Assembly: GCA_947626075.1 (NCBI GenBank)
Contig: CANQQW010000007.1
Location: 1-43,860, forward strand
DNA: 43,860 bases
Direction of reading: 5' to 3'
From: an uncultured Clostridia bacterium
GTDB lineage: Bacteria > Bacillota > Clostridia > UBA1381
Shown: piece by piece, positions 30,155-32,608 of the stretch
How the letters are laid out: each line of letters begins with the position of its first letter
How positions within the stretch are numbered: the first letter of the stretch is position 1
Translations under genes and position numbers: made by a program
The notes under the pieces: model-generated
What the model was told of the DNA's origin: nothing
Seen by the model: the letters and a program-made list of their open reading frames with translations, nothing else
Database searches by the model: none

Positions 30155-30183
30155 TTTACAAGCTCAGGGATTTATGGTATATT
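30155..30183 (+). promoter_or_regulatory. SigA promoter of the first structured RNA
   Basis: TTTACA (30155-30160), 17 bases, TATATT (30178-30183). The predicted start near 30187-30190 coincides with the 5' end of the long closing stem of the RNA. The second RNA has the same -35 and spacing. Confidence 0.8.
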
Positions 30184-30186
30184 ATA

Positions 30187-30400
30187 GTTGCTACAAATTC
30201 TTATCATTAATAAATATTGTGCTTCCTTTTGTGCATAATACTTTTCGTGGGTTTGCGCTTGTTAAAAAGCGCACGCTTTGATTGTTATTCCTGCGAGTGG
30301 TATTATTGCGGCACAAGTGAATAAAGATAAGAATGCGTAGCAACATTTTAAATCAAAGCTGCGTTTTATGCGTAGCTTTGAAAAAGGCTACGCATTTTTT
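30187..30400 (+). ncRNA. Structured RNA 1: long closing stem plus bistable terminator module
   Basis: Closing stem: GTTGCTAC and ATTCTTATC (30187-30205) pair with GATAAGAAT and GTAGCAAC (30326-30344), 17 pairs around a 2x2 loop. Inside, TTGTGC-ATAATAC (30229-30241) pairs with GTATTAT and GCACAA (30300-30316), and GCGCTT/AAGCGC forms a hairpin. At the 3' end ATGCGTAGC (30368-30376) and GCTACGCAT (30387-30395) plus T-run make a terminator. An alternative helix TCAAAGCT/AGCTTTGA (30353-30360 with 30374-30381) uses the same AGC. No ORF or adjacent downstream gene. Length and closing stem recall 6S RNA, but I do not recognise a family. Confidence 0.72.
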
Positions 30401-30415
30401 AATGCGGCAGCGAGG

Positions 30416-30479
30416 CGGGCGACCGTGAAGGTCGCCCCTACGGTGGAGGAGGCAGCGGGCGGCCAATGACCGCCCCTAC
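30416..30479. repeat. Two dispersed palindromic repeats of the GGGCG family in tandem
   Basis: GGGCGACC/GGTCGCCC (30417-30424 and 30430-30437) with CTACG flank, then GGGCGG/CCGCCC (30457-30462 and 30470-30475) with a CTAC flank. The first is nearly identical to the copy at 4972-4998. They separate the two structured RNAs. Confidence 0.78.
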
Positions 30480-30519
30480 TCAGCGCCTTTTTGATGGTTA
30501 AAAAAACTTTTCCAAAATG

Positions 30520-30548
30520 TTTACAACCTTCAAAAAGTATGATATAAT
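30520..30548 (+). promoter_or_regulatory. SigA promoter of the second structured RNA
   Basis: TTTACA (30520-30525), 17 bases, perfect TATAAT (30543-30548). The predicted start near 30554 coincides with the 5' strand of the closing stem. No other promoter is seen before the LRR gene at 30806, so it probably also drives that gene. Confidence 0.85.
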
Positions 30549-30553
30549 TTTTC

Positions 30554-30773
30554 TACCACATATTTTTTTGAATACAATTTAATATATTTCAAAGATATTC
30601 TTATTTTAAGAATGTTCTTTTGAGGTTCCAAATAAAAGTTTGTAATGGCTAAAAATGCAGGCTTTATATCGGAATACTTTTATTTGGAATATCCGTATTC
30701 AAAAAATGTGTGGTAACATTAAATCTAAGCCGCGTTTTTGTGCGTGGCTCGGATTTGTGCCACGCATTTTTTA
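30554..30773 (+). ncRNA. Structured RNA 2: three-way-junction leader with bistable terminator, upstream of the LRR gene
   Basis: Closing stem of about 21 pairs with one bulge: 30554-30575 with 30695-30715. Inside are a hairpin at about 30587-30625 and a perfect 14-bp stem TTCCAAATAAAAGT/ACTTTTATTTGGAA (30626-30639 with 30676-30689) capped by a 36-base loop. The 3' module (30716-30773) is homologous to that of RNA 1. TGCGTGGC/GCCACGCA (30741-30748 with 30759-30766) plus six Ts is a terminator; AATCTAAGCC/GGCTCGGATT (30722-30731 with 30746-30755) is the mutually exclusive alternative. The LRR gene's GGAGG follows about 20 bases after the T-run, so this may be an attenuator for it. No T-box or known riboswitch core was recognised. 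Confidence 0.72.
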
Positions 30774-30805
30774 ATGCAAAAATTTAATTTCACGGAGGTA
30801 AAGAG

Positions 30806-32608
30806 ATGAAAAGAAAGATGTTAATTTTATTCGCGGTTTTAATTGTTATGTTCGCTGTGCCTGTTATCGCCAACGCGGCAAGCGTGGACGATTTAACGTT
30901 TGACGCAGCAACGGGAACGATTACAGGTTGCAATAGCCGTGCTAAAGGCGAGCTTGTCATTCCTGAAGAAATTGGTGGAGTAAGAGTAACAAGCATTGGC
31001 GAAAATGCATTTTGGGGTTCATCATTGACAAGTGTAAAAATACCTGAAAGTGTAGAAAATATCGGCGGTGCTGCATTTAATAGATGTCAGTCTTTAACAA
31101 ATATCACAATACCACATGGCATAACTAATATAGAAGCATGGACATTTAAAGAATGTTCATCATTAACCAATATTACATTACCACCAAGCTTGACAAACAT
31201 AGGTGGTTGTGCATTTTACGGTTGTGCGGCTTTGTCGAATATCACAATTCCCGATAGTGTGGAAAATATCGGTGTTCGCGCATTTTATGGTTGCAAATCC
31301 TTTACGGATATAACAATTCCCGATAATGTAAAAACCATTGAAGATCACACGTTCGCAGGATGTACGTCCTTAATAAGTGTCAATCTGCCTGACCGCTTAA
31401 CGAATGTCGGCGAAAGTGCGTTTATGGGATGTTCTGCTTTAGATAGATTAAATATACCCGATAGTGTGGAAAATATCGGTGGTCGTGCATTTGCTGATTG
31501 TACATCTTTGACAGCTGTTACAGGGTTAAATAGAATAGAAAACATTGAACCATATACATTTAATGGCTGTATATCATTAACAAATATTATACTTCCCAAC
31601 AGTGTGACAAACATAAAAGAAAATGCATTTGACGGTTGCACGTCACTGACAAATATCACAATACCATTCGGTGTGACAAGTATTCATGATTGGGCATTTC
31701 AAGGTTGCACATCATTAACCGATATTATAATTCCCGACAGTGTGACAAATATTAGCAATTATGCATTTAAAGACTGTAATAGTCTAAATATAAAAGTAAC
31801 AGAAAATAATCCGAGTTACAGTGACATAGACGGAGTCCTTTTTGACAAAGATAAAACAGAAATTATAGCATATACAAAAGATAAGATACATCCGAATTAC
31901 ATAATTCCCGATGATGTGAAGAAGATTGGACCTGCTGCATTTGAATTTTGCAAATTTTTAACAGGTGTTACAATACCCGACAGTGTGACAATTATTGAAG
32001 ACGGCTATGCTTTTGCCTGCTGTTCGTCTTTAACAAATGTTATAATAGGAAATAGTGTTACACATATTGGCGACTACGCGTTTTATGAGTGCTCATCCTT
32101 AATGAATATTATAATTCCTGACAATGTAACTCACATCGGAGATACTGCATTTAATGGTTGTTCATCGCTTACAGGTATAATAATTCCCGACAGTATAAAA
32201 GATATCGGTTGGAGTGCGTTTTATGCTTGTACATCATTAACCGACGTATACTACACCGGCAGTAAAGCTGATTGGGAGAATATTGAAATGGGAGAATATA
32301 ACGATCCTCTTCTCGATGCCACAATTCACTACAATTACATTAAATACGATCCAATCACTCCCGCCGCTCTAACCGTCACACCCTCGGGCAACAGCTATGT
32401 GCTCACAGCCGAAACGGACTACGACGGTGATGCGTATGCGGCGGCGTATGACGCGGATGGCAGACTTTTAAATGTCGTGAGCAAACCGTTTACCGGCGGG
32501 ACGGCGACCGTTACTCCCGACACGACAGGTGCGGCGAAAATTAAATTCTTCGTGTGGACGAACACGCTGCAGCCGGTGACATATACGAAAACAATGGCTC
32601 TGCAGTGA
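30806..32608 (+). CDS. Secreted leucine-rich-repeat (LRR_5, BspA-like) protein
   Basis: 600 aa. Signal peptide at about 1-25 (hydrophobic core ending ANAAS). Residues about 40-505 hold roughly 18-19 LRR_5 repeats of about 23 aa of the form SLTNITIPDSVTNIGDYAF. The C-terminal domain (about 510-600) is strand-rich and ends KFFVWTNTLQPVTYTKTMAL. No SLH repeats, LPXTG motif or membrane anchor follow, so it may be released or held by its C-terminal domain. BspA-like repeats commonly mediate adhesion. GGAGG is at 30794-30798. The coding DNA is clearly more AT-rich than most neighbours, apart from the C-terminal domain. Confidence 0.9.
   Translation: MKRKMLILFAVLIVMFAVPVIANAASVDDLTFDAATGTITGCNSRAKGELVIPEEIGGVRVTSIGENAFWGSSLTSVKIPESVENIGGAAFNRCQSLTNITIPHGITNIEAWTFKECSSLTNITLPPSLTNIGGCAFYGCAALSNITIPDSVENIGVRAFYGCKSFTDITIPDNVKTIEDHTFAGCTSLISVNLPDRLTNVGESAFMGCSALDRLNIPDSVENIGGRAFADCTSLTAVTGLNRIENIEPYTFNGCISLTNIILPNSVTNIKENAFDGCTSLTNITIPFGVTSIHDWAFQGCTSLTDIIIPDSVTNISNYAFKDCNSLNIKVTENNPSYSDIDGVLFDKDKTEIIAYTKDKIHPNYIIPDDVKKIGPAAFEFCKFLTGVTIPDSVTIIEDGYAFACCSSLTNVIIGNSVTHIGDYAFYECSSLMNIIIPDNVTHIGDTAFNGCSSLTGIIIPDSIKDIGWSAFYACTSLTDVYYTGSKADWENIEMGEYNDPLLDATIHYNYIKYDPITPAALTVTPSGNSYVLTAETDYDGDAYAAAYDADGRLLNVVSKPFTGGTATVTPDTTGAAKIKFFVWTNTLQPVTYTKTMALQ

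Follow-up and report, generated by a model that had tools for sequence, protein, structure and literature searches.

Two tandem structured leaders of an uncultured Clostridia bacterium point to a multi-copy family of candidate two-state RNA attenuators

The window (the whole 43,860-nucleotide stretch analyzed here, contig CANQQW010000007.1 of an uncultured Clostridia bacterium) carries on its forward strand two tandem units (30155-30400 and 30520-30772). In each, a sigma-70-type promoter is followed by a long stem from the predicted transcript start and then by a module of ~70 nt that ends in a terminator. The second unit stops 33 bases short of the start codon of a gene on the same strand (30806-32608, with GGAGG at 30794-30798), whose product is a BspA-type leucine-rich-repeat protein (LRR_5) of 600 aa with a signal-like N-terminus. 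The gap between the units (30405-30490) holds GC-rich REP-like repeats (GGGCGACCGTGAAGGTCGCCCCTACGG and similar), and repeats of this kind separate the RNA from its gene at L025, L028, L035 and L036. An earlier note on this DNA had described two tandem, promoter-driven structured RNAs, each with a long closing stem at its predicted transcript start. Both statements were borne out: the promoter sequences and T-runs are there, the minimum-energy folds are far better than those of 200 dinucleotide shuffles (z -6.31 for unit 1 and -8.02 for unit 2, with 0 shuffles as good), and the closing stems 30187-30205/30326-30344 and 30554-30575/30695-30715 are both present in these folds. The same note had suggested collecting homologues upstream of lonB as well, but the lonB-type gene here runs divergently on the opposite strand and so is not a target.

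The promoter of unit 1 (30155-30183; seen in the sequence and in a promoter-anchored scan) consists of a -35 box TTTACA (30155-30160), N17 and a -10 box TATATT (30178-30183). The 5' strand of the closing stem P1 is sited at the predicted transcript start (30187-30205; fold and promoter-anchored scan), and its 3' strand (30326-30344; fold and covariation) includes strand A (30333-30341), whose alternative partner is strand D. A core hairpin (30244-30297; family models and alignment) holds the short stem P4 (30254-30259 with 30268-30273) and, at 30275-30283, the 5' strand of a pseudoknot, GCUUUGAUU; the 3' strand of the latter, AAUCAAAGC (30351-30359), is formed by the linker and the 5' half of strand B, both strands being supported by a permutation test. 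Strand B (30355-30363; fold and covariation) forms the antiterminator B:C with strand C (30369-30379), which pairs with B or D, and the terminator (30387-30400) joins strand D (30387-30395) to a T-run (30395-30400), both C and D being placed by covariation. Unit 2, assigned on the same grounds, has its promoter at 30520-30548 (TTTACA 30520-30525, N17, TATAAT 30543-30548), the P1 strands at 30554-30575 and 30695-30715 (with strand A at 30706-30715), a core hairpin at 30632-30683 found with the family models (P4 30641-30644 with 30656-30659), strand B at 30727-30734, strand C at 30741-30748 and a terminator at 30759-30772 (strand D 30759-30766, T-run 30767-30772). Its proposed pseudoknot strands, GGCUU (30660-30664) and AAGCC (30727-30731, within B), are placed by inference from the family, not from its own subtype. 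The interiors of the two units had been thought alike merely in length and layout; this was wrong, as a homologous core, at 30244-30297 and 30632-30683, is common to the two and recurs in other members.

To follow these units further, each was used as a query against its own genome, and from 15 of the copies found, window pair included, two separate models were built, R1 for the core and R2 for the 3' module. Of the 23 R2 matches in the own genome at E<=1, 17 score below 1e-5. At E<=0.01 R2 has matches in 46 of 61 genomes (the own genome and 60 relatives), with none in G010 and G013, although both belong to the own genus. Matches occur in 34 of 95 genomes of the own order and, class-wide at E<=1e-5, in 39 of 391 sampled genomes, 31 of those 39 outside the own order. 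The named records with R2 matches are those of uncultured Monoglobus sp., of uncultured Clostridia and Eubacteriales MAGs, of an Oscillospiraceae MAG and of Lachnospiraceae bacterium MD329, the last not labelled as a MAG; a pattern search of named genomes yielded 33 loci, 28 with an R2 match at E<=0.01 and five without (L173, L181, L183, L187 and L194), which are probably chance. At E<=0.05 the R1 model matches 75 times in the 87 fetched sources (68 once four double-counted in overlapping loci and three model-training units are removed). At E<=0.1 it matches 27 times among 40 class-wide loci, always directly 5' of the 3' module, so that the two separately built models co-occur; 22 of 103 own-order units and 13 of the 40 class-wide loci have no R1 match upstream. 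Judged by their sequences, both window units are members of a widespread multi-copy bacterial RNA family that is apparently unnamed. One exact module pattern had 0 matches in viral contigs, which is weak evidence against a phage origin.

Tandem units are common, in arrays of two or three (L093, L116, L147, L151, L152, L154, L155 and L171, the last with three units and outside the promoter scan). Most of the tandem units scanned have their own recognizable promoter, with none convincing at L116_1801 and L151_2073. In the own genome, three tandem units at L053 (contig C59) precede a gene of the 38-59 aa protein family described below, and a further unit on the opposite, minus strand (L053:1084-1407) precedes a Cro/CI-type HTH gene. 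At L093 of genome G001, a window-like unit pair stands before a gene 54% identical to the LRR gene of the window.

The position of P1 relative to the promoter is nearly constant: its 5' strand, which pairs with strand A, begins 4-6 nt after the -10 box in 137 of 144 units and exactly 5 nt after it in 94 of the 144, with ~80-260 nt from the start of P1 to the end of A. Its variants are compensated (TGCTAC/GTAGCA, TACCAC/GTGGTA, TGCGAC/GTCGCA, TGCAAC/GTTGCA and GTCAC/GTGAC), and a permutation test on 137 of the 144 units (112 distinct pairs) gave z -25 with 0/2000 permutations as strong, a figure that is inflated because the promoter was chosen partly by pairing and that in its fixed-offset version reuses the chosen promoters.

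The four strands A, B, C and D lie 3' of the P1 5' strand and core, at and beyond the closing of P1, and each has two alternative covarying partners: the transcript 5' end or D for A, the core or C for B, B or D for C, and C or A for D. Counted over 109 distinct module sequences, in an alignment that was fitted to C:D and not to A:D or B:C, C:D is 98.4% paired with 90 double-change cells, A:D is 92.3% paired with 60 (13-70% when slid by 1-3 columns), and B:C, of which eight pairs were counted and the ninth, outermost one omitted, is 85.9% paired with 42. The two outermost counted pairs of B:C are weak, being unpaired in 32/93 and 52/101 cells. Permutation gave z values of -9.5 for A:D, -12 for B:C, -16 for C:D and -5.1 for A:B, with +1.0 for the control A:C; all of our permutation and covariation tests count related units as independent. 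When A:D was compared with 500 shuffles, two of five measures were often reached (double-change pairs in 32/500, further pair types in 59/500) and the other three by none. A small predicted hairpin between A and the linker (e.g., AAUGU-GUGGUA-ACAUU) also has some compensated bases.

The note's argument for the competing helices turned on a single base difference: A30374 in unit 1 stands opposite U30360 or U30389, its counterpart G30746 in unit 2 opposite C30731 or C30761, and the bases named in the note are correct. The claim that one change is compensated in two helices holds and generalizes over the 109 sequences, in which this C-strand column pairs with D as GC 64, AU 12, CG 7 and UA 4 times and with B as CG 48, UA 11 and GC 5 times, plus wobbles; the D column that faces it pairs with strand A as GC 53, AU 17, CG 10 and UA 3 times, with 16 unpaired. 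Lack of covariation in either helix of a wider alignment had been named beforehand as grounds for giving up the antiterminator-terminator pair, and both helices carry compensated changes there. These changes also bear on the idea of a repeat family copied along with paralogous LRR genes, whose conservation would reflect recent duplication rather than function. The modules of the own genome are indeed near-identical (up to 95%), but compensated changes in P1, the pseudoknot, A:D, B:C and C:D extend over loci from ten labelled families, before downstream genes of different kinds, and we consider this explanation extremely improbable.

Four strands with alternative pairings also recall ribosome-mediated attenuation at a leader peptide, as in Leu_leader, for which one locus (L151) has a sub-threshold match of 32 bits (cut-off 50), the best within-unit match to Rfam below gathering in the laxer scans. 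Of 137 units, 33 have an ORF of at least 8 codons with a Shine-Dalgarno sequence, a slight excess over the mean of 26 for 20 mononucleotide shuffles. Against this reading, P1 starts from +1 and the core and the pseudoknot are conserved, and we consider attenuation by a leader peptide extremely improbable.

In that core hairpin, a variable outer stem is followed by a YU, the short stem P4 (with G-C/A-U and C-G/U-A exchanges) and a loop carrying an almost invariant A run, and then by GGCUUU or similar. The strand 3' of P4 has its pairing partner in the linker and the 5' half of B, as in GCUUUGAUU with AAUCAAAGC in unit 1; further pairs are GGCUUGGAU with AUCCGAGCC, ACUUUGUUUC with GAAACAAAGU, and GCUCUGA with UCAGAGC. 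In the own order, native partners are stronger than partners swapped between units (z -8.6, 0/1000, 71 distinct pairs); this test began with 104 units of at least 40 bits and, after loss of L149 (loop not recognizable), then of 22 units without an R1 core and of L153 (segment not parsable) from the remaining 103, used 80, with the linker of L142 corrected by hand. Outside the order, class-wide, the result was z -7.4 (0/2000 permutations, 37 distinct pairs) on 39 of 40 loci, L229 being left out for lack of a readable core, with segments picked by eye, which may favor pairing. A reversed-strand control was also below chance in the two tests (z -3.1, 1/1000, and z -2.7, 12/2000), so that composition contributes to the signal. 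Covariation of the pseudoknot was not significant in the GUGUGGUA subtype, which includes unit 2 and has a pseudoknot of only ~5 pairs (z -1.2, 121/1000, 38 distinct pairs); the remaining subtypes gave z -7.2 (33 distinct pairs). The pseudoknot of unit 2 is thus a proposal by analogy with the rest of the family.

Folding was used to ask how these pairings compete. RNAfold, which ignores pseudoknots, gives P1 and B:C for both window units, and the 3' module folded by itself takes up A:D with B:C in 123 of 144 cases. With strand A and the pseudoknot strand both blocked, the terminator C:D forms in 143 of 144 modules; with the pseudoknot strand alone blocked it forms in 138, and with A alone blocked in 81, B:C being retained in 62. 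Because blocking the pseudoknot strand yields more C:D than blocking A, the modelled folds suggest that the pseudoknot decides more than P1 does, a comparison that is partly built in, since with B blocked C has only D or A left.

From these pairings we propose the following switch. Transcription would start at P1. In the OFF state, P1 would be closed and the GCUUUGAUU-type core strand would be held in the pseudoknot, opposite the linker and the 5' half of B; with A and B thus occupied, the C:D terminator would form. In the ON state, A:D would enclose the B:C hairpin, no terminator would form and the downstream exported-protein gene would be read. OFF is most likely selected by a cellular signal that binds to the core and pseudoknot and that, by stabilizing them, would cause termination; that the units switch in cells, that the signal is a small molecule and that its binding favors OFF is what we infer from this arrangement. 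Comparative sequence and folding support P1, the core, the pseudoknot, A:D, B:C, C:D, the promoter position and the gene context, and it is probable, on this comparative and modelled footing, that the units act in cis as two-state transcription attenuators, each with an aptamer-like core, and belong to an orphan riboswitch-like class. The observation in the window is confirmed as real and is larger in extent than first described: the core, its pseudoknot with the antiterminator, the A:D helix, the occurrence in many copies and the link to exported-protein genes had all been missed, and of the earlier description the tandem switching leaders stood while the 6S idea, the statement on the interiors and the link to lonB were not borne out.

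The genes downstream are biased toward exported proteins. Own-order units, to which this count is confined, have 92 distinct first downstream ORFs, 80 of at least 60 aa (a few picks are doubtful), and a crude hydrophobicity rule finds a signal-like N-terminus in 67 of the 80, compared with 3 of 27 ORFs of the window and 63 of 216 others in the fetched sequence. The latter control also counts repeated records and genes behind class-wide units, which should push it up. For 90 downstream proteins, the families listed include LRR_5 (29), CHAP (6), ricin-type lectin (5), Cu_amine_oxidN1 (3), SLH (2) and HTH_3 (2), and no metabolic theme is evident among those listed (25 of 42). A family of proteins of 38-59 aa with a EYEEMYKTLFNKITDVIEELKEVQKQTEEMY-like pattern also recurs after the RNA (e.g., L024:2938-3051, and at L100, L102, L104, L112, L115, L141, L145, L147 and L241); three of them were compared with Pfam and had no match. 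The bias toward exported proteins argues against regarding the units chiefly as short, stable trans-acting RNAs (multi-copy sRNAs, 6S-like) with incidental read-through, as does the maintenance of B:C and A:D, which a plain sRNA would not need, and the lack of a 6S match at gathering. Each window unit does have its own promoter and terminator, units stand in arrays of two or three, and inserted repeats part the RNA from its gene at several own-genome copies, so that we hold a trans-acting role to be unlikely rather than negligible.

If the units are attenuators, as we favor, the signal could instead be an RNA-binding protein (antitermination of the BglG/LicT or ANTAR type). The core is of modest size with a conserved loop A run and GCU, and the regulon has no metabolic theme among the families listed, both of which would suit a protein; the long-range pseudoknot and the closing of P1 at +1 are aptamer-like, however, and the core lies far upstream of the terminator without overlapping it, whereas known antiterminator-protein sites overlap the terminator. 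A protein signal is therefore a reading we doubt, if less than a trans-acting role. Surface-protein regulons are typical of c-di-GMP riboswitches, and a new class of c-di-GMP riboswitch would fit both the exported, surface-type targets and the own genome, which encodes 6 GGDEF domains and has no c-di-GMP-I match at E<=0.01. GGDEF domains, however, are absent in 7 of 22 carrier genomes (in 4 of 16 when carriers are restricted to those >=90% complete with <=5% contamination, e.g., G357 with 9 units and G167 with 2), and on account of these carriers c-di-GMP is unlikely as the ligand and a new c-di-GMP class very improbable. The c-di-GMP families of Rfam had no match at gathering in the window or in 11 loci, and the whole-genome scans covered c-di-GMP-I. 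The DAC domain (c-di-AMP) is present in 27 of 29 carriers, the two without it being G388 (93% complete) and G219 (88%).

According to PMC7266159, each riboswitch class that senses a signaling molecule either started out as an orphan or came to light inside another class. The lack of an evident metabolic theme in the regulon points likewise to the sensing of a signaling molecule. We give an even chance to the larger reading, that this is a new riboswitch class with one to ~20 copies per genome, in roughly one in ten of the genomes sampled from the class Clostridia, that senses a signal other than c-di-GMP and acts as a gate for the exported and surface proteome; copies in tandem, each with a promoter of its own, would then serve as multi-input gates. 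If this is right, leucine-rich-repeat, CHAP-domain, lectin-domain and other exported-protein genes of Clostridia are preceded by a widespread riboswitch-like class, an orphan that Rfam 15 does not contain. Its four-strand design, with two supported partners per strand, would offer a clean natural test case for co-transcriptional RNA switching.

The earlier note had recognized no named family, and indeed Rfam 15, with all families including 6S, T-box and c-di-GMP, gives 0 matches at gathering in the window and in 11 loci; under laxer settings, the window stretch and 6 loci showed sub-threshold matches only. T-box and any other described riboswitch class are thereby set aside at gathering for these sequences, and so is 6S RNA, which the note had thought possible for unit 1. 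We recognized no description of the element in Rfam 15 or in the open-access literature, where, judged by title and abstract opening, none of the papers listed is about it, most subscription papers, preprints and supplementary tables lying outside the search; passages of PMC8040213, a paper with 3161 candidates, and of PMC7266159 hold nothing that matches it, and a prior mention is possible.

Among known systems, 6S RNA has a long closing stem, a length of roughly 160-260 nt and its own promoter, all of which the units share, but they differ from it in having no match at gathering, many copies per genome, a built-in switch and linkage to genes. The c-di-GMP-I riboswitch (RF01051), present at E<=0.01 in 16 of the same 61 genomes, resembles the family in its surface-protein regulons; it has no match in the window or the 11 loci, however, and carriers without GGDEF exist. 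Leu_leader and other amino-acid attenuators (RF00512) likewise have four strands with alternative pairings, and one locus shows sub-threshold similarity, whereas here scores stay below gathering, a leader-peptide signal is not clear and the core is pseudoknotted. The general traits of riboswitches are present, namely a conserved core with covarying helices in a 5' leader and (from comparison and computation) mutually exclusive structures that include an expression signal. With terminating riboswitches that have pseudoknotted aptamers, the units share the 5' leader, the conserved core, the alternative antiterminator and terminator and the position in cis near the gene start; they depart from them in belonging to no Rfam family at gathering, in a P1 that starts from ~+1, in a homologous expression platform conserved together with the core, and in tandem units that each have their own promoter.
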